Part shown: positions 446 to 30,482 of the stretch, piece by piece
Layout of the letters: each line of letters opens with the position of its first letter
How positions within the stretch are numbered: the stretch's first letter is position 1
Source: an alpha proteobacterium AAP81b
GTDB taxonomy: Bacteria > Pseudomonadota > Alphaproteobacteria > Sphingomonadales > Sphingomonadaceae
Reading direction: 5' to 3'
Length of the DNA stretch: 36,626 nt
Assembly (NCBI GenBank): GCA_001295935.1
Contig: LJHX01000019.1
Coordinates: 1-36,626, forward strand
Translations under genes and position numbers: made by a program
The notes under the pieces: model-generated
Seen by the model: the letters and a program-made list of their open reading frames with translations, nothing else
Told to the model about the DNA's origin: nothing
The model's database searches: none

Positions 446-904
446 TCAGCCGCCGTCAAGCCGGGCGAGGTCGGCGGCCTCGGCGGCGCTGAGCGGCGCC
501 TCGGCGGGCACCGCGGCGCCGCGGCGGCGCAGCCACAGCGCCAGCATGGCGCCGCCGCCGATCGCCAGCGCGAAGGGCCCCGCCCAGAGCGGCCAGGTGG
601 CGGGTTCGACCGGCGGCTTCAACAGCACGAAGTCGCCGTAGCGCGCGACGACATAGTCCATCGTCGCGGCGTCCGACTTGCCGGCGCTGAGCTGCTCGCG
701 GACGAGGAGACGCAGGTCGCGCGCCAGCGGGGCATCAGAGTCGTCGATCGACTGGTTCTGGCAGACGACGCAGCGCAGCTGCTGCGAGATATCCCGCGCG
801 CGGGTTTCGAGCGCCGGGTCGGCGAGCATTTCGTCGGGCAGCACCGCCGCCGCCGGGGTGGCGGCGAGCAGCGCGGCGATCAAACCACTGCGCCAGCGCC
901 TCAC
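446..904 (-). CDS. ccmH: Cytochrome c maturation protein CcmH
   Basis: CcmH is a periplasmic, membrane-anchored thiol-disulfide protein that keeps the CXXCH cysteines of apocytochrome c reduced for heme attachment. The 152-residue protein has a signal segment (residues 7-20, [14 protein letters not shown]). It carries the family hallmark LRCVVCQNQ with the redox pair Cys45/Cys48, and a C-terminal membrane helix near [21 protein letters not shown] chose the GTG at 904 because it overlaps the ccmG stop as GTGA, a coupled start, and gives the usual length and signal peptide. A longer open frame upstream reads through ccmG out of frame and is not real. ccmI follows after 40 bases. Confidence 0.93.
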
Positions 905-1431
905 GCTTCGGCCCTCAAACGGTCCATCAGCGGCTTGATCTCGCCCTCCCAGGCCTCGGGACTGATCGGGCCGACGATCTTGTAGCGCACCCGGCCGGCC
1001 TTGTCGGTGACGAAGGTTTCGGGCGCACCGGTGACGCCGAGATCGATGGCGACGCGCCCCGACAGGTCCGACGCAATCGCCTTGTACGGGTTGCCGAGCC
1101 TCGCCAGCCAGTCGCGCGCGTCGGCGGGTTGGTCCTTCCAGGCGATGCCGAAGACCGGATAGCCCTCGCCGGCGATTCGGGTCAGCACCGGATGCTCCTG
1201 CGGGCAGGCGGCGCACCAGCTGGCGAAGACATTGACCAGCGCCGGCTGGCCGCGCAGCGCCGCGGTCGCGAAACCGCCGCCGGCCTCGATGCCGGGCAGG
1301 GCGAACTGCGGCATCGGCTTGTCGATCAGCATCGACGGCAGTTCCTTGGGGTCCTTGGTCAGCCCGACGCCGAAGATGGCGATCAGCCCGACAAAGGCGA
1401 GCACCGGCAGCAGGAAGAGCAGGCGCTTCAT
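901..1431 (-). CDS. ccmG: Thiol:disulfide interchange protein CcmG/DsbE
   Basis: CcmG is a thioredoxin-fold protein tethered to the periplasmic side of the inner membrane; it reduces CcmH or apocytochrome during c-type cytochrome maturation. The 176-residue protein has an N-terminal anchor ([20 protein letters not shown], residues 4-23). The redox motif [10 protein letters not shown] has Cys73 and Cys76, followed by the family features GIAWKDQ and GAPETFV. Length and motif spacing are normal for the family. Its ATG overlaps the ccmF stop as ATGA, and its stop overlaps the GTG of ccmH, so translation of ccmF-ccmG-ccmH is probably coupled. Confidence 0.95.
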
Positions 1432-3407
1432 TCGGCGGGCACTGCGGAGGGGCTTGCCGCCGGCCGCAGCGCCGGGGCGCCGATGCGGAAGCGGCGATCG
1501 GCGAGCGACGCGGCGCCGCCGAGTGCCATCAGCAGCCCGCCGAACCAGATCCAGCCGGCGAGCGGGTGGCGATAGATGCGCACCACCAGGCCGTCGCCGC
1601 CCGGCCCCTGCTGGGTGTCGCCGATGGCGATATAGCTGTTGCCGAACAAGCTGGTGCCGATGCCGGCCTCGGTCGTCTGGTTGCGGCTGACCGGATAGAA
1701 GCGCCGCGACGACTGGAGGTGGATAATCCGGCTACCCTCGCGGACGCTGAACTCGGCGGCAAGCGCCTGGTAATTGACGCCCTCGAGCTCGTGGACACGG
1801 GCAAGGGTGACCGACATCGGCCCGAGGCTGGTGGTTTCACCCGGCCGCATGACGAGGATCTTCGACGCGGCAAAGCAGCTCATCGCGGTAACGCCGGCGG
1901 TGGTGACACCGAGGCCGCTGTGCGCCAGCGCCATGCCGATGACCGCGACGGGCGTCGTGCGGACCAGCCGCCAGGAAAAGCCACCAGCGCCGGTCCAGCG
2001 CCGCGCGAATATCATGACGCCGCCGAGGATCAGCCAGAACGCCGTCGTGAAGCCAACGACCGCCGCCGCCGTCACCGGCCCCGCCGCGAAAGCGATGCCG
2101 CCGCCGACGACGACCGCCAGCAGCGCCGGCAGCCGCAGCTTCCTCGCCAACACGCCGAGGCTATCGCGCTTCCAGGCGAGAAGCGGCCCCACCGTCACCA
2201 TCAGCAGCAACGGCACGGCGAGCGGGGTGAAGACGAGGTTGTAATAGGGCGGGCCGACCGAGATCTTCTTGCCGACCGCCTCCATGACGACGGGATAGAA
2301 GGTGCCGAGGAAGACGACCGCGGTCACCGCCATCAGCAGCAGATTGTTGATCGTCAGCCCGGCCTCGCGGCTGACGGCGCCGAACATCGCGCCCGATTTG
2401 AGTTGCGGCGCGCGCAGCGCGAACAGCGCCAGTGCCGAACCGGTGGCGCCGACGATCATCGCGAGGATGAAGACGCCGCGCGTCGGATCGACGGCGAAGG
2501 CATGGACCGAGGTCAGGATGCCCGAACGTACCAGGAAGGTGCCGATCAGGCTGAGCGAGAAGGTCAGGATGGCAAGCAGGATCGTCCAGCCGGCAAGGCT
2601 CCCACGCTTTTCGGTGACGATCGCCGAATGGAGCAACGCCGTGCCGAGCAGCCAGGGCATCAGCGAGGCATTCTCGACCGGGTCCCAGAACCACCAGCCG
2701 CCCCAGCCGAGTTCATAATAGGCCCAGAAACTGCCGAGCGTGATGCCGCAGGTCAGCGGCACCCAGGCGGCGAGCACCCAGGGCCGCACCCAGCGCGCCC
2801 AGGCGGCATCGGCGCGGCCTTCGAGCAGCGCCGCGACGGCGAAGCTGAACGCCACCGAAAAGCCGACATAGCCGAGGTAGAGCAAAGGCGGGTGGAAGAC
2901 GAGGCCGGGGTCCTGCAGCAGGGGATTGAGTTCGGCGCCATCGGGCGGCGCCGGATCGAGCCGCGCGAAGGGGTTCGACGTCAGGATCGAAAAGGCGAGG
3001 AAAGCGACCGAGATCATCGCCTGCACCGACAGCACGCGCGCCTGCAGGCTGGCCCGCAGATTGTCGCCGAAACGGGCGAGGCCCGCGCCATAGAGCGCGA
3101 GAATCAGCACCCAGAGCAGCATCGAGCCTTCGTGGCTGCCCCAGGTCGCTGCCAGCCGATAGGGCAAGGGCTGGTCGAGCGCTGCATGATCGGCGACCAG
3201 CGCCACCGAAAAATCGGCGCGGCCGAAGCAGATCATCAGCATCGCGAAGGCGGTGAGCAGCAGCAGCGCCTGGAGTTCCGCCGCCGAGCGCCCGAAGGCC
3301 ATCAGCGCCGCATCGCCGCGCACCGCGCCCGCCATCGGCAGCACCGCCTGCGCCGCAGCGACAAAAAGCGCGAGGATGAGAGCGAACTGGCCGATTTCGG
3401 CAAACAT
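1428..3407 (-). CDS. ccmF: Heme lyase subunit CcmF
   Basis: CcmF is the large polytopic membrane subunit that, with CcmH and CcmI, ligates heme to apocytochrome c in System I. The protein is 659 residues, normal for the family. It carries the tryptophan-rich WWD heme-binding signature ([17 protein letters not shown]) and an early [11 protein letters not shown] motif, with many hydrophobic helices and a periplasmic C-terminal part. I chose the ATG at 3407 ([15 protein letters not shown]) because it opens straight into the first membrane helix; an in-frame ATG ten codons upstream adds charged residues that do not fit. The gene diverges from the redox module at 3514. The heme chaperone gene ccmE, often next to ccmF, is not adjacent here. 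Confidence 0.95.
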
Positions 3408-3513
3408 GATGGGGACGCGACGCTCCCCCGGCACCACCGCCGGGCAGGCTTTACTCTAGCGGCGCGCGCGCCTTTTGATAGAGTGCATCTCGGTCGCAGG
3501 GGGGCGGCTCGAC

Positions 3514-6054
3514 ATGACCGCGCACTTCCGCATCGCCATCATCGGCTCGGGGCCCGCCGGGCTCAGCGCCGCGGCGCATGCGGCGTCGCTGGGGCTTGCC
3601 CATGTGCTGCTCGAAAAGACCGGGCATCTTTCCGATACGATCTACAAATATCAGAAGGGCAAGCATGTCATGGCGACGCCGGCACAGCTGGTGCTGCGCG
3701 CCGGTGGCGACACGCCGTTTGCCGCCGGCAAGCGCGAGACGATCCTCGGGGCCTGGGATGCGCGCGCCACCGAGCTGAAGATCAACGTTCGCTACAATGC
3801 CGAAGTGACGGCGATCGCCGGCACCGGCGAGGCGATCCCCGGCAGCGTCCAGAAGATCGTCACGCGGAAGCGCGACGGCAGCAGCGCGACGACCGAGCTG
3901 CAACGCCATGCGCCGCCCTATCGCCTGACGCTCGCCGACGGCGGCGAAATTCTTGCCGATACGGTGATCCTGGCGATCGGCACCCAGGGCAACCCCAACC
4001 GCCTCGCCTGCCCCGGCGGCGACAGCGCCCATGTCCAGTACCAGCTCGACGACCCCGGCGAGTACACCGACGAGCACATCTTCGTCATCGGCGGCGGCGA
4101 CGCCGGCATCGAGAACGCCCTCGGCCTCGCTGCCGACCCGGCGCAGGCCAATGTCGTCACGCTCGTCAACCGCGGCGCCGAATTCTCGACCGCCAAGGAC
4201 GCCAATGTAAAGGCGCTGCTCGCCGCGCGCGACGCCGGGCGGATCAGCATCATGACCGGCACGACGCCGCGCCTGGTGGAGCCCGGCTGGATCGTCCTCG
4301 ATACCCCCGATGGCGAAGTCCGCGCCCGCGCCGATCGCATCATCGCGCGCATGGGGTCGGCGCCGCCGCGTGGCTTCGTCGAAGCCTGCGGCATCGAATT
4401 CACGTCAGGCGACCGTCTCGCCTATCCCAAGCTGTCGCCGGTGTTCGAGACGACGGCGCCGGGGATCTTCGTCGTCGGCGCCCTCGCCGGTTATCCGCTG
4501 ATCAAGCATTGCATGAACCAGGGGCATGACGTCGTCGAGTTCATCAACGGCAACCGGGACTTGAAGCCCGCCGACGAACCGATTCTCGAAGCCAAGTTCG
4601 CCGGGCTGCCGGGGCGGCGCTCGGTCGCCGACTGGCTCGAACGCCTGCGCAGCCGCGTCTCGATCCTGGGCGGCATGAGCCCCTTGCAGATGCGCGAATT
4701 CATGCTCGATTCGGAAGCGCGCTTCGTTCCCGCCGGCGAAATCGTCTTCGAGCGCAACACCCCGGGATCGTCGCTGTTCGGCATCGTCGAAGGTGAGGTC
4801 CGCGTCGAAGTCGACCCCGCCAACCCAGCAATAACCGTGCCGCTGGCGGCGGGCAGCATCTTCGGCGAGGTCGGGCTGATCTCCGGCCGCCGCCGCGGCG
4901 CCACCATCCGCGCCGGCAGCGACTGCATCCTTGTCGAAATCTCGCGCGGCGCGGCCTTGAAGCTGATGTCGGCGGTACCTGCGGCGGGCCGCGAGGTCAC
5001 TCGCATAACGACGACGCGCAGCCTGCAGCAGATTTTCAAATCGGGGCTGACCCCCGATGACCTCGCCGGCATCATCGCCACCGCCAAGGTCGAGACCGTC
5101 CGCGCCGGCGAGGCGCTGATCCGCGAGGGCGAGGCGGGTGACGACATCTTCATCATCCGCTCAGGGTCGATGGTCGTCGAGAAGCTGATCGCCGGCAAGC
5201 CGGTGTTCCTGAACTATGTGCCCGCCGGCAGCTATGTCGGCGAAATGGCGGTGATCGACGGTGGCCCGCGCTCCGCCACCGTCCGCGCCGCGGTCAAGGC
5301 CGATGTGATCCGACTGGAGGGAGCCGCCTTCCGCGCGCTGCTCGACGCCAAGCCCGAGTTGCTCGCCCGGCTGCGCGCCGACATGGCGGACCGCACCCGC
5401 CTCAACAACTTCATCGAAGCGAAGAAGGACAGCTTCCGCGGGCTGGTCGACATGTACACGGGTGTCGCCAATTTCCTCGTCGATCAGGGCGTCGGCGAGG
5501 CGACCGACGTGCTGCTGATCGACGAAAAGCTCTGCGTCGGCTGCGACAATTGCGAAAAGGCCTGCGCCGATTCGCATGACGGCCTGTCACGCCTCGATCG
5601 CGAGGCGGGGCGGACCTATGCCCATCTGCATGTGCCGACGTCGTGCCGGCACTGCGAGCACCCGCATTGCATGGCCGATTGCCCGCCCAACGCCATCCAC
5701 CGCGGGCCGACGGGCGAGGTCTATATCGACGAGACCTGCATCGGCTGCGGCAATTGCCAGCGCGGCTGCCCCTATGGCGTCATCCGCATGGACAAGGTGC
5801 CGCCGAAAAAGCCTTGGCTGTTGAGCTGGCTGTTGTTCGGCAACGGCCCTGGCCCCGGCGAGCCGCCCAAGGCCTGGGCGTACAAGCACGCCAAGAAGGG
5901 TGTCGAGACGCCAAAGAAGGCCATCAAATGCGATATGTGCGCCGGGCAATCGGGGGGGCCGGCGTGCGTCCGCGCCTGCCCGACCGGCGCTGCCATCCGC
6001 GTGTCCCCCGAGCAGTTCCTGACGGTGGCGCTGCTCGAACGCGGTGCCGACTGA
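3514..6054 (+). CDS. FAD-dependent oxidoreductase with two cyclic-nucleotide-binding domains and a four-cluster ferredoxin tail
   Basis: This 846-residue cytosolic protein (no signal, no membrane helix) joins three modules. Residues 1 to about 380 form a two-dinucleotide-fold flavoprotein, with IIGSGPAG for FAD at 9-16 and VIGGGDAG for NAD(P) at 191-198. Residues about 395-510 and 515-630 are two CNB domains. Both keep a phosphate-binding-cassette pattern: FGEVGLISGRRRGAT in the first and VGEMAVIDGGPRSAT in the second. Residues about 670-830 hold four clusters of cysteines typical of DmsB/NarH-like ferredoxins (CVGCDNCEKAC from 674, CRHCEHPHC from 711, CIGCGNCQRGC from 742, CDMC...CVRAC from 806). 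I infer that it moves electrons between NAD(P)H and the cytochrome b encoded directly downstream, gated by cAMP or cGMP. The start follows an AGGGGG ribosome site; an in-frame ATG at 3475 lacks one. The next gene overlaps by one base (TGATG). Confidence 0.85.
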   Translation: MTAHFRIAIIGSGPAGLSAAAHAASLGLAHVLLEKTGHLSDTIYKYQKGKHVMATPAQLVLRAGGDTPFAAGKRETILGAWDARATELKINVRYNAEVTAIAGTGEAIPGSVQKIVTRKRDGSSATTELQRHAPPYRLTLADGGEILADTVILAIGTQGNPNRLACPGGDSAHVQYQLDDPGEYTDEHIFVIGGGDAGIENALGLAADPAQANVVTLVNRGAEFSTAKDANVKALLAARDAGRISIMTGTTPRLVEPGWIVLDTPDGEVRARADRIIARMGSAPPRGFVEACGIEFTSGDRLAYPKLSPVFETTAPGIFVVGALAGYPLIKHCMNQGHDVVEFINGNRDLKPADEPILEAKFAGLPGRRSVADWLERLRSRVSILGGMSPLQMREFMLDSEARFVPAGEIVFERNTPGSSLFGIVEGEVRVEVDPANPAITVPLAAGSIFGEVGLISGRRRGATIRAGSDCILVEISRGAALKLMSAVPAAGREVTRITTTRSLQQIFKSGLTPDDLAGIIATAKVETVRAGEALIREGEAGDDIFIIRSGSMVVEKLIAGKPVFLNYVPAGSYVGEMAVIDGGPRSATVRAAVKADVIRLEGAAFRALLDAKPELLARLRADMADRTRLNNFIEAKKDSFRGLVDMYTGVANFLVDQGVGEATDVLLIDEKLCVGCDNCEKACADSHDGLSRLDREAGRTYAHLHVPTSCRHCEHPHCMADCPPNAIHRGPTGEVYIDETCIGCGNCQRGCPYGVIRMDKVPPKKPWLLSWLLFGNGPGPGEPPKAWAYKHAKKGVETPKKAIKCDMCAGQSGGPACVRACPTGAAIRVSPEQFLTVALLERGAD

Positions 6055-6956
6055 TGGCGCGCGCGGCGATCTCGCGGGCGCCTGTTTCTCGTGCCGTGGT
6101 GCGCGCGCCGCGCGACACGGCGCATGAGGGCTTCCTCACGCATCGTCGCGGCCTGTGGTGGAAAGTGGCGCTGGCGCTCAGCCTGGTCGTCAGCGCCGCC
6201 TATGCACTCATCGACCAGTCGCCACGCCCCAATGGCGGCACCGCGCTCGGCTATGGCCTCGGCACCTTGGGCGCGCTGCTGATTCTCTGGCTGTCGCTGC
6301 TCGGGCTTCGCAAGCGCATCATCACCCGCGGCGCCTATTCGCTCAAGGCCTGGACGAGCGCGCATGTCTGGCTCGGGCTGTCACTGATCGTCGTCGGCAC
6401 GCTGCACAGCGGCTTCCAGTTCGGTTGGAACGTCCACACGCTGGCCTGGGGGCTGATGATGATCGTCATCCTGACCGGCCTCTACGGCATCATCGTCTAT
6501 GCCCGGCTGCCCGAGCAGCTCAGCGCCAACCGCCAGGAAGTCACCCAGCCGCAGATGCTCGAGGCGATCCGCGCCTTGGACGCCCATCTCGACAATGCCG
6601 CCCAGCCGCTCGGCCCCGACGATGCAGCGCTGGTGCGCTTGAGCCTCGAAAAGACCGATATTGGGGGAAGTCTGCGGCAGCGCCTCGGCGGCAGCTATGC
6701 GCGCGACGGCAATGCCCGGGCGCTGGCGGCGGTGCGCGGCGAAGTCGAGCGCCAGCGCCTCGCCGGCAAGCCCGACCAGCGGCTGGCGCAGATCCTGTTT
6801 CTCCTCGAACGCAAGGAGGCCGCGCTTGCCCAGGCGCGGCGGCATATCGGGCTGAAGTCGCGCCTCGAAATCTGGCTCTACATCCATGTGCCGGCGACCT
6901 TCGCGCTGCTCGCCGCGCTTGCCGCCCACATCACCAGCGTCTTCCTCTACTGGTGA
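6054..6956 (+). CDS. Cytochrome b-like integral membrane protein of the redox module
   Basis: The 300-residue protein has hydrophobic helices near residues 34-52, 62-84, 103-122 and 130-150, and a last one at the C-terminus. Histidines sit inside or at the edges of helices (His104 and His118 in HVWLGLSLIVVGTLHSG, His126 in NVHTL, then IHVP and AAHITSV near the end). This is the pattern of a diheme b-type cytochrome of the cytochrome b561/ferric reductase kind. A charged cytosolic loop of about 100 residues lies between the helical blocks. It starts at the ATG that overlaps the stop of the flavoprotein and is followed after 22 bases by the decaheme gene, so the three are almost surely one operon. 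I infer that it carries electrons across the membrane between the two partners. No named family can be assigned with certainty. Confidence 0.7.
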   Translation: MARAAISRAPVSRAVVRAPRDTAHEGFLTHRRGLWWKVALALSLVVSAAYALIDQSPRPNGGTALGYGLGTLGALLILWLSLLGLRKRIITRGAYSLKAWTSAHVWLGLSLIVVGTLHSGFQFGWNVHTLAWGLMMIVILTGLYGIIVYARLPEQLSANRQEVTQPQMLEAIRALDAHLDNAAQPLGPDDAALVRLSLEKTDIGGSLRQRLGGSYARDGNARALAAVRGEVERQRLAGKPDQRLAQILFLLERKEAALAQARRHIGLKSRLEIWLYIHVPATFALLAALAAHITSVFLYW

Positions 6957-6978
6957 TGGCGCCCATGAGCTTCCCCCC

Positions 6979-8886
6979 ATGAGCTTCATCGTCCGGCAGA
7001 TCGCCAAGCGCGCCGATGGCGGCGACATCATCCGCACGCGCACCCTCGTCGGCACGGCGATCAGCGTCGGCCGTGGCACCGATTGCGACGTCCAGCTCGC
7101 CGATCTCGGAGTCATGCTGCGCCATCTGCGGCTGACGCGGCTTGCCAGCGGGCGGGTTGCCGTCGAGGCGACCGGCGGCGTCCCCGTCGAGATCGCCGGC
7201 AATTTCGTCCAGAGCGCCGATCTCGACCCTGCGTCGTCGCCGACGATCGACCTCGCCAGCCACCGGCTGACGCTCGGGCTCGGCGAGGCGCCGGGGTCGG
7301 TGACAGTGACCGCCGAGCGCGTCATCCCGGCGAGCGACGCCGCCGACCCCGCCGCCGAAACCGGCATCTTCTCGCTGCGCGGCACGATGCTCGGCAAACG
7401 CAGCCTCGCCTGGCTGCTGGTCGTGCTGGTGCTGGTCGGCGGGCTCTTGCTGCCCTGGTGGCTCGCCGGCAGCCGGGCGCCACCCCCGGCGATGGTCGCG
7501 GCGGCGGCGCGCGGCGACGGCACAGCGGCGCCCGCTGCGCCAATCCCTGCCGGCTTTGCCGCCGACGAAGTCTGGACCTCGGGGCCGCTGTCGTCGGCGC
7601 ACGCCGGCCTCGCGCATGATTGCGGCGCCTGCCACCAGAAGGCTTTTGTGTCGGTCCGCGATGCGGCCTGCACTGCCTGCCACACGCCCGCGGCTACCCC
7701 GGACCACGCCGCTCCGGCCCGCATGACGCGGGGCCGCGTCACGCCCGTCGGGCTGGTCGCCGATCTTCATCGTCGCGTGGACCTTCCCGAAGGCCGCTGC
7801 GCTTCCTGCCACAAGGAGCATGAAGGCCCGCGCGGCGCGCTGATGGTGGCGGCGAGTTTCTGCACCGATTGCCACGCCGGGCTGGCGGGCCGCCTGCGCG
7901 ATACCGCGCTCGCCAATGTGCCGGGCTGGGAAGGCCATCCCCAGTTCAGGCCGACGATCGTGACCGCGCCGTCACTGACCACACCGCGCTTCACCCGCGT
8001 CTCGCTCGCCGATCGCCCGCGCGAGGCGAGCGGCCTCGTCTATCCGCATGACCTGCACCTGTCGGCGACCAACGCCGTCGCCAACATGGCGCAGAAGCAG
8101 CGCCTGCCGGTCAGCGGCGGCGCCCTCGGCTGCGGCTATTGCCACACGCCGGACAGCGACGGCGTGCGTTTCCAGCCGATCGAGATGGAGAAGAACTGCG
8201 GTGCCTGCCACGACCTCGCTTTCGCCCGCGACGGCGGCGTCACCCGCACCCTGCCGCACGGCCAGCCGGCGCAGGTCGCCGGCATCGTCCGCGACTTCTA
8301 CCTGTCCCAGGCGCTGTCGCCCCGCGCCGGCGTCGAGCGCATCGCCTTCGAACGCCGCCAGCCCGGCCAGTTCGCCGCCGCACAGACGGCAGCGCTGCGG
8401 CTGACCGGCCCGGGCGAGGCGCGCGCCCGCGCCGATGCCGCGATCGCCGCGATCTTCGCGCCGGGCGGGGTCTGCGCCGATTGCCACGGCGTCGTCGATA
8501 CCGGCGCGGCCAATGCCGCGACGCGCTTCACCATCGCGCCGGTGCGCCTCGCCGACCATTATCTCCCCAAGGGCGCTTTCCCGCACAAACGCCACCTGAT
8601 CTTCGACAAGGCCACCGGCGACGCCGCGTGCACCGCCTGCCACACCGGCGTCCGCGCGTCGAAGGTCTCGGCCGACGTCCTGCTGCCGGCGATCGCCACC
8701 TGCCGGCAATGCCATGGTGAACCCGATTCGCGGACCCGCGTCGCCGCCGAATGCAGCACCTGCCACGGCTATCACGGCGCCGGCGACCATGGCGGCGATG
8801 CGGTGGTGGCGCCGGCGCGGCTTGCCCAAGGCCATAGGCTTCCAGCGGCGGGCGCCCCGCGAAACAAGCGCGCCGGGGACGCCTGA
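6979..8886 (+). CDS. FHA-domain decaheme c-type cytochrome, membrane-anchored
   Basis: The 635-residue protein starts with an FHA-like fold at about residues 1-115 (VGRGTDCDVQLADLGV followed by RHLRL). One membrane helix follows at about 142-163 (SLAWLLVVLVLVGGLLLPWW), then a long periplasmic part with ten CXXCH heme sites. The first cysteines are near residues 215, 231, 274, 295, 385, 407, 499, 551, 575 and 592 (CGACH, CTACH, CASCH, CTDCH, CGYCH, CGACH, CADCH, CTACH, CRQCH, CSTCH). The orientation implied is FHA in the cytosol and hemes outside. It resembles cytochrome c3/c7-type multiheme proteins, but an N-terminal FHA domain is unusual. The ATG at 6979 is preferred because the in-frame stretch upstream overlaps the cytochrome b coding end. 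It probably accepts or donates electrons in the periplasm, with maturation by the nearby ccm products. Confidence 0.83.
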   Translation: MSFIVRQIAKRADGGDIIRTRTLVGTAISVGRGTDCDVQLADLGVMLRHLRLTRLASGRVAVEATGGVPVEIAGNFVQSADLDPASSPTIDLASHRLTLGLGEAPGSVTVTAERVIPASDAADPAAETGIFSLRGTMLGKRSLAWLLVVLVLVGGLLLPWWLAGSRAPPPAMVAAAARGDGTAAPAAPIPAGFAADEVWTSGPLSSAHAGLAHDCGACHQKAFVSVRDAACTACHTPAATPDHAAPARMTRGRVTPVGLVADLHRRVDLPEGRCASCHKEHEGPRGALMVAASFCTDCHAGLAGRLRDTALANVPGWEGHPQFRPTIVTAPSLTTPRFTRVSLADRPREASGLVYPHDLHLSATNAVANMAQKQRLPVSGGALGCGYCHTPDSDGVRFQPIEMEKNCGACHDLAFARDGGVTRTLPHGQPAQVAGIVRDFYLSQALSPRAGVERIAFERRQPGQFAAAQTAALRLTGPGEARARADAAIAAIFAPGGVCADCHGVVDTGAANAATRFTIAPVRLADHYLPKGAFPHKRHLIFDKATGDAACTACHTGVRASKVSADVLLPAIATCRQCHGEPDSRTRVAAECSTCHGYHGAGDHGGDAVVAPARLAQGHRLPAAGAPRNKRAGDA

Positions 8887-8963
8887 TCTTGGCTGCGACC
8901 CTGATCGCACGATATCTGCACTCCCCGCGCCCGCCGAGTTGTGCTTTTCGCAACATGGCAGCG

Positions 8964-9022
8964 AAGAAGAAGGGCCTCCGGCGGCGAGGGGCTGAGCCCC
9001 TCGACCCACTCTCGTTTGGATC
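8964..9022 (+). terminator. Hairpin repeat A, copy 1, 3' of the redox module
   Basis: The 209 bases between the decaheme gene and the next gene hold no convincing coding frame, but they do hold this element: CCTCCGGCGG at 8975-8984, then a perfect 8-bp stem CGAGGGGC/GCCCCTCG (8985-8992 and 8996-9003) with a TGA loop, then a short pyrimidine-rich tail. Two related copies occur at 21821-21880 and, inverted, at 21917-21966. Each copy lies 3' of a gene and reads in that gene's direction, which suggests a terminator or 3'-end stabiliser. Confidence 0.6.
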
Positions 9023-9095
9023 CCGGCCAATGCGGCGAGGCTTCACCGTGACCGGAAACTAGGCCAAAGCCGGCCAGCACGCGGGGAGACACTGG

Positions 9096-13703: not shown

Positions 13704-15470
13704 ATGGCAGGGGCAGGACGGCAGGGGGGCGCCATCTGGCTTCGCGCTGCCCTGCTTGGCGCCTTCGCCTGTCTGCTGGCCGTGGGCGCGATGCTGGTCA
13801 GCCGCATGGCCGGCAATGTCGCGGCCTTGTGGATCGCCAATGCCGCGCTGATCGCCGTGCTCGTCAGCCGGCCGCCGCGGGAATGGCCGCCGGCGCTGGT
13901 CAGCTTCGCCGCCGGTGTCACCGCCGCCAATCTTCTCTTCGGCGATTCGCTGATTTCGGCGATCGGCCTTGGCGCGATCAATACCGTCGAGGGCCTGGTC
14001 GCCGGGCTGGTGATCCGGCCGCGCCTCGGCGATCGCCCCGATTTCGGCGACCGCAGCGACCTCGTCTGGTTCGTGCTGGGCGCGGCGTTTGTCGCGCCGA
14101 TGGTCGGCGCCATGTTGGGCGTGCTGTTCCACACGACGCTCGTCGGCGGCAATGTGCTGGAACTCTGGGTCGCCTGGCGCGCCTGGTTTCTTGCCGATTG
14201 TCTCGGCAATCTCGCCTTTGCGCCGCTGTTCACCATGGCGCTCGGCGGCTTCCGCGACCCCGATGCCGCCAGCGTCCCGGCCTCGCCGCTGGCGAACTTC
14301 TGGCCGCTGGCGGTGGTCGGCGCCACCAGCATCCTAGTGTTCGCCCAGCCGCAACCCGTCGCCTATCTGCTCGTCGCCGCGACGCTGGTGGCAACCTTTC
14401 GCCTCGGCCCGCGCGGCGCGGCGCTGGCCATCGCGATTGTCGCGCTGATCGGCGGCGGCGCGACGCTTGCCGGCTTTGGCCCCTTCACCGTCGCCGGCCG
14501 TTCGCCGGCACAGGAAGGCGCGCTGTTCCAGCTGCTGCTCGGCGTACTGTTCCTCTGTTCGCTGCCCGTCGCCGCGGTGCTCGCCGAACGCAGCCGGCTG
14601 GCGGCGCGGCTTGCCGAGGGCGAGGCGCGCTATCGCGACCTCGTCGATAACATCGGCGATCTCGTCTATGTGACCGATGCCGAGTTCCGCTTCACCGCGC
14701 TCAATACCGCCTGGGTGAAGCTGACCGGCGTGCCGGTCGCCGCCGGCATCGGCCGCATGACCACCGATTTCATCCATCCCGACGATCGCCACCTGCTGAT
14801 CGCGGCGCGCGACCGGCTGACGACATCGGGCGAGCGCGTCACCGTGCGCAGCCTGACGATCAATGGCGTCCGCCACATGTCGGTGCTGGCGCATGCCATC
14901 CGCGACGACGCCGGCCGGCTGATCGGCACGCGCGGCACCGCGACCGATGTGACGGCGCAGGTCGAAGCCGAGGCGGCGCTGCGGCTGGCGGCCGAAACCG
15001 ACGCGCTGACCGGGCTGGCCAATCGCCGCCGGCTGCTCGCCGGGCTCGACCTTGCCCTTGTCAACGCCGACAATGGCGGCGGTCCGCTGTCGCTGGTGCT
15101 CCTCGACGTTGATCGCTTCAAGGCGGTCAATGACCAATATGGCCATCCGGCGGGCGATGCCGTGCTGGTGGCGATCGCCCGCGAACTTCTGTCGATCGCT
15201 GGCGGGCATCTCGCCGCGCGCTTCGGCGGTGAGGAATTCGCGCTGGTGCTGCCCGGCTTCGACGCGCGAGCGGCGCATGAGTTCAGCGAGGTGCTGCGGG
15301 CGCGGATCGCGGCGCGGACCCTGCACCCAGTGCCGCGCGTCACCGTCAGCCTGGGCATCGCCGAACGCCAGCCCGGCGAAGGTGCCGCCACCCTGATCGC
15401 CCGCGCCGACGCGGCGCTCTATGCCGCCAAGGCGGCGGGCCGCAACCAGGTGATGCGCGCCGCCGCCTGA
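13704..15470 (+). CDS. MASE1-PAS-GGDEF diguanylate cyclase
   Basis: This 588-residue sensor enzyme would make cyclic di-GMP from two GTP. Residues 1 to about 300 are hydrophobic with about eight helices and motifs of the MASE1 membrane sensor type (ALWIANAALIAVL, LADCLGNLAFAPLF). A PAS domain follows at about 305-425 (YRDLVDNIGDLVYVTD, DFIHPDDRH). The GGDEF domain at about 430-588 has DALTGLANRRRL, LLDVDRFKAVND and the intact active-site motif GGEEF at 508-512. The inhibitory RxxD site usually a few residues before GGEEF is absent (the segment reads AGGHLAARF), so product inhibition may be lost. The signal sensed is unknown. Confidence 0.93.
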   Translation: MAGAGRQGGAIWLRAALLGAFACLLAVGAMLVSRMAGNVAALWIANAALIAVLVSRPPREWPPALVSFAAGVTAANLLFGDSLISAIGLGAINTVEGLVAGLVIRPRLGDRPDFGDRSDLVWFVLGAAFVAPMVGAMLGVLFHTTLVGGNVLELWVAWRAWFLADCLGNLAFAPLFTMALGGFRDPDAASVPASPLANFWPLAVVGATSILVFAQPQPVAYLLVAATLVATFRLGPRGAALAIAIVALIGGGATLAGFGPFTVAGRSPAQEGALFQLLLGVLFLCSLPVAAVLAERSRLAARLAEGEARYRDLVDNIGDLVYVTDAEFRFTALNTAWVKLTGVPVAAGIGRMTTDFIHPDDRHLLIAARDRLTTSGERVTVRSLTINGVRHMSVLAHAIRDDAGRLIGTRGTATDVTAQVEAEAALRLAAETDALTGLANRRRLLAGLDLALVNADNGGGPLSLVLLDVDRFKAVNDQYGHPAGDAVLVAIARELLSIAGGHLAARFGGEEFALVLPGFDARAAHEFSEVLRARIAARTLHPVPRVTVSLGIAERQPGEGAATLIARADAALYAAKAAGRNQVMRAAA

Positions 15471-27318: not shown

Positions 27319-27455
27319 GCATTGTCCTCCAGGCTATCCACCATGCGAGACCGGTATGGCCTGGCCAGGCGTCTTTCCGGCTGGATGGTGCCGGGAAGCT
27401 GTTGAGGCCGCGCGCCGACAAGGGCGGGGCCGAAAAGGGGAAGCGCCGGGCTCAT
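27315..27455 (-). CDS. 46-codon ORF coupled to both bchZ and pufB (pufQ position)
   Basis: This frame runs from an ATG that overlaps the bchZ stop as ATGA to a TGA that overlaps the pufB start as ATGA. Its product would begin [20 protein letters not shown], followed by an Arg-rich middle and an acidic end (SLEDNA). It has no membrane helix and I recognise no family. In Rhodobacter the gene between bchZ and pufB is pufQ, a membrane-bound protein of about 74 residues, and this sequence does not resemble it. It may be a small protein, a leader that couples translation into pufB, or chance. No strong ribosome site precedes it, so its translation would depend on ribosomes leaving bchZ. Confidence 0.45.
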
Positions 27456-28909
27456 GCCGCTTGCGCCTGAACTTGTGCCGCCGCGGCGGCGAGCCGGGCG
27501 CGGGTGACTTCGGCCTCGCCGGCGGCACGCGCGGCGGCCTCGGCGGCATCGCGCAGGCGCTTGGCCGCCGAAATGCGCACCAGCACCGGCTGGCGCTCGA
27601 CGAGCGCGTCGAGCTCGGCGCGGGCGTCCTCGGCCCAGGCGACCTGGCGCTGGGGTTCGAGCCGCGACGGCGTCGCATCGACCTTGTCGAGGGTGGTGCC
27701 CAACGGCAGGATGTTGAACAGCGCGTCGAACAGCGCGTTGCAGACTTCCTGGACGAGATAGGTGGCGCCCGAATAGCCCATGTAGGGCGAGCCGGTATGG
27801 CGGCGGATCGCGGCGCCGGGGAAGCTCGCCGGCACATAGATGCCGCGGCCACCGGCTTCGGCGAGGTACATCCGTTCGTTGTAGCTGCCGAACACCACCA
27901 GCGGCGGGTTGCCATGGATGTCGGCGCGGACCTGGGCGTTGTCGGGCTTGACCCCCGCCGAGCGCCAATGGGCGAAATGGCAGGGCAGCCCGAGATCGCC
28001 TTCGAGGAAGCCCTTGAGGCCGCGGGCATAGGTTTCGGTGGCGACGACGCCGAAGCTTGCCGTGCCGAAGAAATCCTGGGTGACCGAGCGCCACAGGTCC
28101 CACAGCGGCTTGATCGTCGTATGCTTCTCGCGCTCGATGAAGGGCGCGGCGTCGAGGCCGGTGAGTTCGGCGAGGGTTTCGAGGAACAGCGTCGTCGAAG
28201 TCAGCCCGATCGGCGCCTGCAGGAAGGGACGCTCAAGGGTCTCGCACAGCCCGCGACCGAATTCGCGGTACATGCAGATGTTGACATCGGCGTCGGCCAA
28301 TTTGCGGACGTCCGCCAGATGGCTGCCGAGCGGGAAGACCATGTTGACGGTGCAGCCGAGGCCTTCGACGAGGCGACGGATCTCGGCGAGGTCCGATGCC
28401 ATGTTGAAGCAGCCGTACATCGGCCCGATGATGTTGACGCGCGGCGCCTGACCCTCAGCGCGCGGGCGCGGCGGCGGGACTTTCTTCGGTCCGAACTGCG
28501 TCCACAGCCAGGTCAACGCGCGGTCGGCGGCCTGCCACTGGTCCTCGTCGATGGTGCGCGGCAGGAAGCGCTGGATGTTGGTGCCTTCGGGGGTCACACC
28601 GCCGCCGATCATCTCGGCGATCGAGCCGGTGACGACGACCGCCGGCAGCGACGGGTTGAGCGTGCTCCAGGCGCGCTTCATCGCGCCTTCGGTGCCGTCG
28701 CGGCCGAGTTCCTGCTCGCTGAGGCCGGTGACGACGATCGGCAGCTCGTGCGGCGGCAGGCCGTCGGTATAGTGCAGCACCGAGGTGACGGGGAGATTCT
28801 CGCAGCCGACCGGCCCGTCGATGACGACCTGCAGGCCCTTGATCGCGGTGAAGGCGTAGACGGCGCCCCAATAGCCGCCGGCCCTGTCATGATCGAGGAT
28901 CAGCGCCAT
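27452..28909 (-). CDS. bchZ: Chlorophyllide a reductase subunit BchZ
   Basis: BchZ and BchY form the catalytic tetramer of chlorophyllide a oxidoreductase, which reduces ring B on the way to bacteriochlorophyll a. The protein has 485 residues. [16 protein letters not shown] near residue 32-47 carries the conserved Cys36 that helps hold the catalytic 4Fe-4S cluster shared with Bch[21 protein letters not shown] and [16 protein letters not shown] are typical of the nitrogenase-like subunits. The last 60 residues are Ala/Arg-rich and helical. GGAGGTGAAG precedes the start. A partial, frame-shifted copy of its own first codons lies upstream. Confidence 0.97.
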
Positions 28910-28980
28910 GCTTCACCTCCAGGACCGTCAGAGATCATGACGAATCCGGCAAAAGCGCCGTGGTCGAGGATGAGGGTCAT
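28900..28980 (-). pseudogene. Frame-shifted relic copy of the bchZ start
   Basis: An ATG at 28980, overlapping the bchY stop as ATGA, opens a frame reading MTLILDHGAFAG, closely like the true BchZ start [12 protein letters not shown] 71 bases downstream. The relic frame runs past the real start out of frame and stops after 26 codons. The DNA of the two starts matches at most positions over about 25 bases. This looks like a small tandem duplication, or an older coupled start that was displaced by an insertion. It could still deliver ribosomes from bchY towards bchZ. Confidence 0.55.
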
Positions 28981-30482
28981 GTCCCGACCGCCTCCTCGGC
29001 CTTGGCGTTGGCGGTCATCTTGGCAGCGTACTTTTTCGCAAATTCCGGCCGGTCGCGCGGCGTGTCTTCCCAGATGCCGGCGGCATGGCCTTCGCCGACG
29101 CCTTCGAAGAAGCTCCGCATCGTTTCAAAGCGGTCCTTCGACGCCATTGCGGCGTTGACGACCTGGGCGAGGCTGCCGGCGCCGGCGGGGCCCATCAGCG
29201 GCCGCGCCGAAATGAGGTTGGTGAAGTAAAGCGCCGGGATCGCCTTGGTCTTGGCGTGCTGGACGACCGGCGTCGTGCCGATGGCGAGATCGGGGTCGAA
29301 GGCGTCGACAGCGCAGAGATCCTGTTCGAGGCTGGCGCGATACTGGACGCGGGTGCCCTTGGCCTCGAGCCATTCGCGATCGACTTCCGACCAGGGCGTG
29401 CGCGGGCAGGCGGTGCCGACATAGGGCACCTCGGCGCCCGATTCGATCAGCAGCCGCGCGACAAGCAGTTCGGAGCCCTCATAGCCCGAGACGGTGATGC
29501 GGCCCTTGACCGGCTTGGCGGCAAGCGCCCCGGCGATGGCGGGGAGGAAACGGTTCTGCGCCGCGGCGACCTTGTCGGCGGCGATACCGCAAAGCTCGCC
29601 GACCGCCGCCAGCCAGGCGGCGGTGCCGTCACGGCCGACCGGCGCCGAGCCTAGGACGCTGCGCCCCGCCGCCTGGAATTCGCGGACGCTGGCGGTGTAG
29701 AAGGGATGGATCGCCGCCACCGCGGCGCAATCGAGCGCGGCATAAAGCTCGCGCCATTCGCGCGTCGGCACCACCGGCCCGGCGGCGAGCCCGAGGGGTT
29801 CGAGCATCATGCCGATGCCGACAGGATCGGCGGGGAACATCTCGCCGAGCAGGGTGATCGTCGGGCGGTCGGGCAGCGACGCCGGCGCCGCCACCGGCCC
29901 GGCGGCGGCTTCCTTGCGGGCGTAGGCGAGCATCGCGCCGGCGAGGACGTCCTTGGCCTCGGCATGGGTCGGCACGCCGAAGCCCGGCACGTCGATGCCG
30001 ATGATCCGCACGCCGTTGATCGCATCGGGGAGCAGCTGCAGCGGCACGCCGCTCGCGGTCGGCACGCAGAGGTTGGTGACGACGATGGTATCGTAGAGCG
30101 CCGGATCGGCGAGCTCATGGACCGCGTCGCGGATATCCTCGAAGAGCTTGCCGGTGACGAGGCTTTCCGAATTGAACGGCACATAGCCGACCGTCCGCCG
30201 CGCGCCATAGAAGTGCGAGGTGAAGGTCAGCCCATAGACGCAGCAGGCCGAGCCCGAGAGCACCGTCGCGGTGCGGCGCATCCGCAGCCCGACACGCAGG
30301 GAGCCAAACGCCGGACACATCGATTGCGGCTGATCGTGCGGACCCTTGGGATAGTCCGCAGCATAGCGATCGAGGACTTCCGACTTGCCTGCCGCCGCGG
30401 CGGCCGCGCGCAGCGTGTCGGCGCCGGCGTGGCAGCCAAGGTCCTCGACAGGGACAGGAGGAGAGCCGAGCGCCTCAGACAT
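28977..30482 (-). CDS. bchY: Chlorophyllide a reductase subunit BchY
   Basis: BchY is the second catalytic subunit of chlorophyllide a oxidoreductase. The 501-residue protein has the cysteines expected to bind the interface 4Fe-4S cluster: Cys56 in QSMCPAFG, the pair Cys80-Cys81 in GSACCVYG, and one in TNLCVPTASG. FTSHFYGARRTVGYVPFNSESLVTGKLFEDIR and the later VSGYEGSELLVARLL and IGTTPVVQHAKT blocks are typical. Its start overlaps the end of bchX by 8 bases (ATGTCTGA), so translation of the two is likely coupled. Its stop overlaps the relic bchZ start. Confidence 0.97.
   Translation of the reverse strand: MSEALGSPPVPVEDLGCHAGADTLRAAAAAAGKSEVLDRYAADYPKGPHDQPQSMCPAFGSLRVGLRMRRTATVLSGSACCVYGLTFTSHFYGARRTVGYVPFNSESLVTGKLFEDIRDAVHELADPALYDTIVVTNLCVPTASGVPLQLLPDAINGVRIIGIDVPGFGVPTHAEAKDVLAGAMLAYARKEAAAGPVAAPASLPDRPTITLLGEMFPADPVGIGMMLEPLGLAAGPVVPTREWRELYAALDCAAVAAIHPFYTASVREFQAAGRSVLGSAPVGRDGTAAWLAAVGELCGIAADKVAAAQNRFLPAIAGALAAKPVKGRITVSGYEGSELLVARLLIESGAEVPYVGTACPRTPWSEVDREWLEAKGTRVQYRASLEQDLCAVDAFDPDLAIGTTPVVQHAKTKAIPALYFTNLISARPLMGPAGAGSLAQVVNAAMASKDRFETMRSFFEGVGEGHAAGIWEDTPRDRPEFAKKYAAKMTANAKAEEAVGT

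Follow-up and report, generated by a model that had tools for sequence, protein, structure and literature searches.

A candidate cyclic-nucleotide-gated electron conduit encoded by a three-gene unit of Alphaproteobacteria

The window, a stretch of 36,626 nucleotides of DNA, carries on its forward strand three neighbouring genes (the trio) that combine a flavin domain, two CNB domains, ferredoxin-type clusters, a candidate membrane cytochrome and a decaheme cytochrome c, with a phosphodiesterase gene belonging to the wider module. Their features are listed below in window positions; the gene calls were made by scripts with a codon-score picker, and start positions may be off.

446-883, reverse strand: ccmH/nrfF
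901-1431, reverse strand: ccmG/dsbE-type thioredoxin
1428-3437, reverse strand: ccmF/nrfE-type heme lyase, running away from gene 1 across a 76-base gap
3514-6054, forward strand: gene 1, FAD/NAD(P) oxidoreductase-CNB-CNB-four-cluster ferredoxin, 846 aa
3526-4524, forward strand: YpdA/thioredoxin-reductase-like FAD/NAD(P) domain of gene 1, aa 5-337
4720-4971, forward strand: CNB domain 1 of gene 1, cassette residues E452 and R461
5092-5346, forward strand: CNB domain 2 of gene 1, cassette residues E577 and R586
5512-6003, forward strand: HycB/DmsB-like ferredoxin domain of gene 1, 16 Cys for four [4Fe-4S]
6054-6956, forward strand: gene 2, candidate di-heme b-type membrane cytochrome, 300 aa
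6979-8886, forward strand: gene 3, FHA-like domain-TM-decaheme cytochrome c, 635 aa
10918-11763, forward strand: SpdA/CpdA/Rv0805-like phosphodiesterase of the wider module

The stop codon of gene 1 and the ATG of gene 2 have one base in common (CTGATGG), 22 bases separate gene 2 from gene 3, and an amine-oxidase-type gene lies between the trio and the phosphodiesterase gene. As seen by the closest named relatives, among the best 80 of at least 550 stretches, the host is a sphingomonad-like alphaproteobacterium. It is likely to be an anoxygenic phototroph, since the chlorophyllide reductase genes bchZ and bchY are found at 27452-30281. A MASE1-PAS-GGDEF diguanylate cyclase is also encoded near the module, at 13704-15470.

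Regarding gene 1, Pfam recognizes Pyr_redox_3 (E 5e-24), Pyr_redox_2 (4e-22), two cNMP_binding stretches (1.1e-34 for the whole protein; 69.3 and 58.5 bits, both above the cut-off of 27.5) and Fer4 domains, the ferredoxin tail holding 16 cysteines at residues 674-822. The flavin domain is of the kind common to YpdA and thioredoxin reductase; however, its YpdA score of 109 bits is far below the cut-off of 340 and it has no CxxC, as its sole cysteines are Cys166, Cys292 and Cys333. Judging by its motifs, we take NADPH to be a likelier donor than NADH. The 16-cysteine tail aligns with the four-cluster ferredoxins HycB, DmsB and NrfC but, unlike them, is fused behind FAD and CNB domains and scores below the curated cut-offs. 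The CNB pair, with intact cassettes, aligns along the regulatory subunit of PKA in one stretch, and differs from PKA-R and CRP in its placement within a predicted redox chain, no kinase or DNA-binding partner domain having been found.

These features are strongly preserved among 130 gene 1 orthologs, of which 123 are distinct (the ortholog sets count some genomes twice). The intact cassette patterns originally reported hold throughout, Gly-Glu and Arg being invariant in both CNB domains in 130 of 130 sequences; the Glu and Arg presumably serve the ribose and the phosphate, respectively. In CNB domain 2, eight of 111 columns are at least 99% identical, Glu577 and Arg586 among them, and the remainder of the domain is variable. 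The residue following its cassette Arg is Thr or Ser in 117 of the 130, leaving the choice between cAMP and cGMP unsettled by sequence. All 16 ferredoxin cysteines are present in the 129 orthologs that cover them. No viral relatives of gene 1 were confirmed in the search.

Gene 2 is a candidate di-heme b-type cytochrome, the b hemes being predicted from the spacing of two H-x13-H pairs, His105/His119 and His279/His293. The first two histidines are kept in 131 of 131 orthologs and the other two in 130 of 131, the misses being gaps. A structure model predicted from the window sequence and 46 of 74 cytochrome b sequences is good (pLDDT 86) and has five long membrane helices, with one histidine pair on the third and one on the last of them (residues 97-119 and 242-298), and hydropathy and charged loops suggest that one heme lies close to each membrane face. 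The protein gave zero Pfam or NCBIfam matches at E 0.1, its best matches among PDB sequences had E 0.49 or worse, and no Foldseek match to the model was found at E 0.001.

The product of gene 3 has ten CXXCH motifs, kept as ten in 111 of 119 orthologs, which are preceded by a single transmembrane stretch at residues 146-164. With the Pfam domains and cysteines of gene 1 and the histidine pairs of gene 2, the three parts named in the original prediction are thus confirmed, and its order of redox centres (FAD, 4Fe-4S, heme b, ten hemes c) is borne out as far as cofactor motifs can predict it. Meanwhile, the N-terminal FHA-like domain matches weakly, with E 0.026 for FHA and 2e-4 for Yop-YscD_cpl in Pfam, both below the curated cut-off, and a profile match to GarA at E 3.5e-4. 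In the residue register taken from the GarA alignment, the Ser and Asn positions, which we take to contact phosphothreonine, are Met46 and Ala73 in the window, so that the control by phosphorylation proposed earlier does not follow. The domain is well kept at GR (118/119) and at the His of SxxH (107/119). The Ser of SxxH is seldom kept, this position being E in 22, D in 20, M in 15, N in 14, A in 11, T in nine, P in eight and S in seven of the 119 orthologs (S or T in 16); the Asn position is D in 51, N in 43 and G in 13. Phosphorylation control through this domain is not supported by these residues.

A scan of named genomes gave at least 550 stretches with a gene 1 relative at E 1e-3 or better, of any closeness, from which the best 80 were kept. 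All three genes are present in 75 of these 80 best of at least 550 loci, and the remaining five are truncated by a contig edge close to or within it. The co-conservation that had been expected stood within this set, where order and strand are identical in 75 of 75 loci with a full trio (best 80 of at least 550), and did not hold throughout the wider one, as 40 stretches examined in the class and the phylum comprise 29 with the full trio and 11 lacking it. Gene 2, searched at E 1e-6 (a match at this threshold is what "with cytochrome b" means for family genomes), was detected in 25 of 60 relatives (a count that includes the window genome), in 44 of 385 class genomes and in 35 of 398 phylum genomes, the weaker matches being distant cousins. 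Within the family, the loci covered show all three genes in 19 of the 23 genomes with cytochrome b (the window genome and 18 others; G005, G013, G015 and G023 are not among the 19). The mean column identities of genes 1, 2 and 3 are 80% (14-row alignment), 62% (16 rows) and 55% (14 rows), indicating that the trio is not a product of chance; of the cluster members, alignments A1 to A4 include 16 of 23, 14 of 21, 14 of 21 and 12 of 18, and A5, A6 and A7 include 16, 17 and 23.

Departures from this arrangement are informative about how the parts are connected. Genes 1 and 2 are fused into one frame, both CNB domains included, in L142 and L144, which belong to one genus. In L124, L128 and L130, genes 2 and 3 occur with no adjacent gene 1, L128 having a FAD fragment at its far end. 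L149 encodes, at 7331-9046, a CNB-CNB-ferredoxin protein without a FAD domain, beside cytochrome b and a ten-CXXCH frame, which suggests that the CNB block is tied to the ferredoxin/cytochrome b side at least as strongly as to the flavin. Seven of the 11 stretches without the full trio are distant cousins of cytochrome b beside cytochromes with 21-34 CXXCH. Such cytochromes were seen in the distant cousins L049, L050, L135-L137 and L145-L148, several with a barrel-like protein, and the ferredoxin-FAD proteins of L135, L146 and L148 showed no CNB domain when scanned. The distant-cousin loci lacking CNB may represent an ungated sister system.

The trio may encode a conduit from NAD(P)H to the periplasm that is gated by a cyclic nucleotide, a reading to which we give a probability of about 0.55. 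In its favour are the parts, the cofactor motifs, their order, their conservation and their co-occurrence with other genes, all read from sequence; the complex, nucleotide binding, gating, direction, ligand and acceptor are what we infer from them. The three proteins would assemble as an inner-membrane electron conduit, where NAD(P)H would reduce the FAD on the cytosolic side and electrons would pass from it to the four [4Fe-4S] clusters and on to a pair of b hemes on the third and last helices of gene 2. These hemes would then reduce ten hemes c in the gene 3 product, which may be docked by its transmembrane helix and cytosolic FHA-like domain, and an envelope partner would receive the electrons, a candidate being the LVIVD decaheme cytochrome, present in 29 of 44 class genomes with cytochrome b. 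Since the CNB pair is sited between the flavin and the ferredoxin, the binding of cAMP or cGMP to these tandem PKA-like domains probably opens or closes the entry to the clusters, although sequence does not tell whether the nucleotide would activate or inhibit this predicted gate. No strict match to an FNR- or CRP-type box was found in 81 upstream regions, which fits protein-level control, as weak evidence. Scanning for sigma-70 promoters and terminators gave no useful signal.

The signal itself would be produced by a CHASE2 cyclase and removed by the linked phosphodiesterase, two components which, like the LVIVD decaheme and its barrel-like neighbour, had escaped the original prediction. The phosphodiesterase is a calcineurin-like metallophosphoesterase (Pfam 52 bits, cut-off 21.5), and its nine positions in the D-x-H, GD, GNHD and GHxH motifs are kept in 82 of 82 sequences. 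It has a profile match to Rv0805 at E 9e-30 and stays below the curated cut-offs of SpdA (125 versus 400 bits; this model carries a name for 2',3' nucleotides) and CpdA (75 versus 225 bits), although one Sphingobium plasmid record labels the gene cpdA. Unlike SpdA, CpdA and Rv0805, it is genomically tied to a predicted electron conduit: among the best 80 of at least 550 named loci, 69 have room for it, and it lies at most 2.5 kb from the trio in 63 of these, further off in three and unseen in three.

This association extends to the 36 family genomes, where, in raw counts not adjusted for shared ancestry, the phosphodiesterase is present in 23 of 23 with cytochrome b versus one of 13 without, and a class III cyclase above the cut-off in 23 of 23 versus two of 13 (a match in G020, below the cut-off, was scored negative). 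Outside the family, the phosphodiesterase was not found in 24 relatives, and among 36 other-family stretches it stands beside the trio in L138 only. The cyclase occurs without the trio in eight of the 24 outside-family relatives, so that the cyclase alone is no mark of the module. The phosphodiesterase was observed once without cytochrome b, in L256 (G034:C33), whose genome encodes class III cyclases as well. A single cyclase match was obtained in the window genome, and it bears a CHASE2 domain. Such a CHASE2 cyclase directly adjoins the phosphodiesterase in G018, in Brevundimonas denitrificans (L245) and in G676; in L233 the adjoining cyclase frame runs off the end of the sequence and is seen as a profile match only, and in G023 two genes separate the pair. 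A cyclase gene of this kind falls within the stretch in seven of the best 80 of at least 550 named loci, and two other cyclases have GAF and PAS domains in place of CHASE2.

The invariant cassettes, together with the co-occurring cyclase and phosphodiesterase, lend sequence support to the second-messenger gate that had been proposed. CNB folds are also found in other kinds of proteins, such as the family 2B encapsulin among the NCBIfam matches, and the domains could be structural here or bind another ligand, with no second-messenger gate. This is improbable, as the cassette Glu and Arg are invariant in both domains of every ortholog and the cyclase and phosphodiesterase track cytochrome b within the family. 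Returning to the gated conduit, we tentatively extend it, at somewhat under even odds, to a widespread second-messenger circuit acting directly on electron transport, in which a CHASE2 sensor cyclase would join with a dedicated phosphodiesterase and the tandem-CNB flavo-iron-sulfur enzyme to switch a transmembrane wire from NAD(P)H to multiheme cytochromes. The switching would be allosteric, not transcriptional, and the outer cytochrome modules exchangeable.

The LVIVD cytochrome has about 1300 aa, ten CXXCH and LVIVD repeats, and a barrel-like protein of about 610 aa adjoins it. Near the trio, the cytochrome is encoded in 32 and the barrel in 27 of the best 80 of at least 550 named loci; the window genome encodes its LVIVD decaheme on another contig, C81. 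Searched at E 1e-20, the cytochrome is present in 29 of 385 class genomes, from 14 families: 29 of 44 with cytochrome b and none of 341 without, a difference of Fisher p 6e-33 uncorrected for ancestry. The 11 phylum genomes having it, out of 398 (three shared with the 385-genome set), all have cytochrome b, and among relatives it is found in 19 of 19 with cytochrome b versus none of 11 without, a set made up of 29 relatives out of the 60 and an arbitrarily chosen G138, from which G005, G015, G017, G023, G030, G033 and G036-G059 were left out, G000 being searched apart. In G013 the protein is an end piece only. In the window genome, counting CXXCH genome-wide by DNA pattern was too noisy.

Among the 15 class genomes having cytochrome b and no LVIVD cytochrome, seven have only a distant cytochrome b (at most 159 bits), and four of the other eight (L116, L127, L130 and L131) carry four- and five-heme cytochromes beside cytochrome b. 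In these four loci a third protein looks barrel-like by eye, with no Pfam match. An HbpS-like protein of about 640 aa with two Pfam stretches (L119:5390-7312 and orthologs) joins the LVIVD cytochrome and the barrel in many loci.

The envelope partners bear on where the electrons would go. A PDB search for relatives of the LVIVD cytochrome gave a single match at E 0.01, which was not useful. A barrel was matched in 27 loci, and a model of it made with 18 sequences is poor, with pLDDT 54 and 19 strands, and is best matched by AlgE and OprD. The MtrB barrel has about 26 strands, and this poor, AlgE/OprD-like model gives no support for an MtrB-type barrel. With the same complex, electrons might end within the periplasm, with the LVIVD decaheme reducing a soluble substrate there, the barrel acting as its porin and nothing reaching the cell exterior. 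The likeness to the substrate porins OprD and AlgE, in a poor model, would fit this reading, as would the signal-like N-terminus of the LVIVD protein, which by eye has no lipobox, and the many sphingomonad hosts among the best 80 of at least 550 stretches, known as aerobes. However, the trio is paired in other loci with the four- and five-heme cytochromes and another barrel-like protein, and the CNB-free cousins have 21-34-heme cytochromes in loci that look more like envelope conduits, so that we regard a purely periplasmic end point as unlikely, if a serious contender.

The genes for cytochrome c maturation next to the trio raise a different possibility, that the module chiefly feeds this maturation or the reduction of periplasmic thiols. 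The window has the divergent ccmF-G-H genes, and a CcmI/NrfG-like TPR gene occurs in 75 of the best 80 of at least 550 named loci; nevertheless, ccmF is found in just 12 of those 80 (best of at least 550), and the module, having ten hemes itself and being tied to the LVIVD decaheme, looks more like a consumer of maturation than its supplier. Such a role is thus very improbable.

As for direction, bchZ and bchY in the window allow for a phototroph that might take up electrons, by analogy with PioAB, in which case an external donor would feed the cytochromes and the flavin would make NAD(P)H or supply reductive metabolism. An inward flow would nonetheless be uphill to NAD(P)H with no evident energy input, and the module is present in many genomes among the best 80 of at least 550 stretches, counted regardless of phototrophy; we hold an inward flow to be rather improbable, and an outward conduit gated by a cyclic nucleotide is preferred.

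This outward conduit would resemble MtrCAB/CymA of Shewanella, PioAB and ImcH/CbcL of Geobacter in the entry of electrons at the inner membrane into multiheme cytochromes of the periplasm and envelope, with a barrel-like partner near. It differs from them in that the entry looks to be by NAD(P)H through FAD and Fe-S clusters, in its tandem CNB domains, in its barrel, not MtrB-like in the poor model, and in a candidate cytochrome b with no PDB fold match at E 0.001. A cyclic nucleotide also affects electron transfer through the Shewanella Crp, at the level of transcription according to the titles and abstract openings available, whereas here the predicted nucleotide site is inside the redox enzyme. 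To our knowledge, there is no case of a cyclic nucleotide directly controlling an electron-transport enzyme at the protein level. In agreement with the earlier view that no named system has this set of parts, neither a description nor a name of the assembly was found in the titles and abstract openings of the literature covered, which includes few subscription journals.

The domains are singly known, and the assembly is possibly a variant of the multiheme electron conduits with direct second-messenger gating as a new principle. If so, a cyclic nucleotide would govern an electron-transport enzyme directly, at the protein level, in many alphaproteobacteria, and a b-type cytochrome family without Pfam or PDB fold match would gain a home. 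The annotations "hypothetical protein" and "cytochrome c3 family" would also be united as one testable system; one PLSDB record labels the parts as cyclic nucleotide-binding domain-containing protein, hypothetical protein, cytochrome c3 family protein and metallophosphoesterase. Genes 1 and 2 were also observed on twelve plasmid records from Sphingobium, 0.9-1.3 Mb in size, and two such records, L035 and L036, carry the whole module, in L035 near a ShlB/FhaC-type gene.
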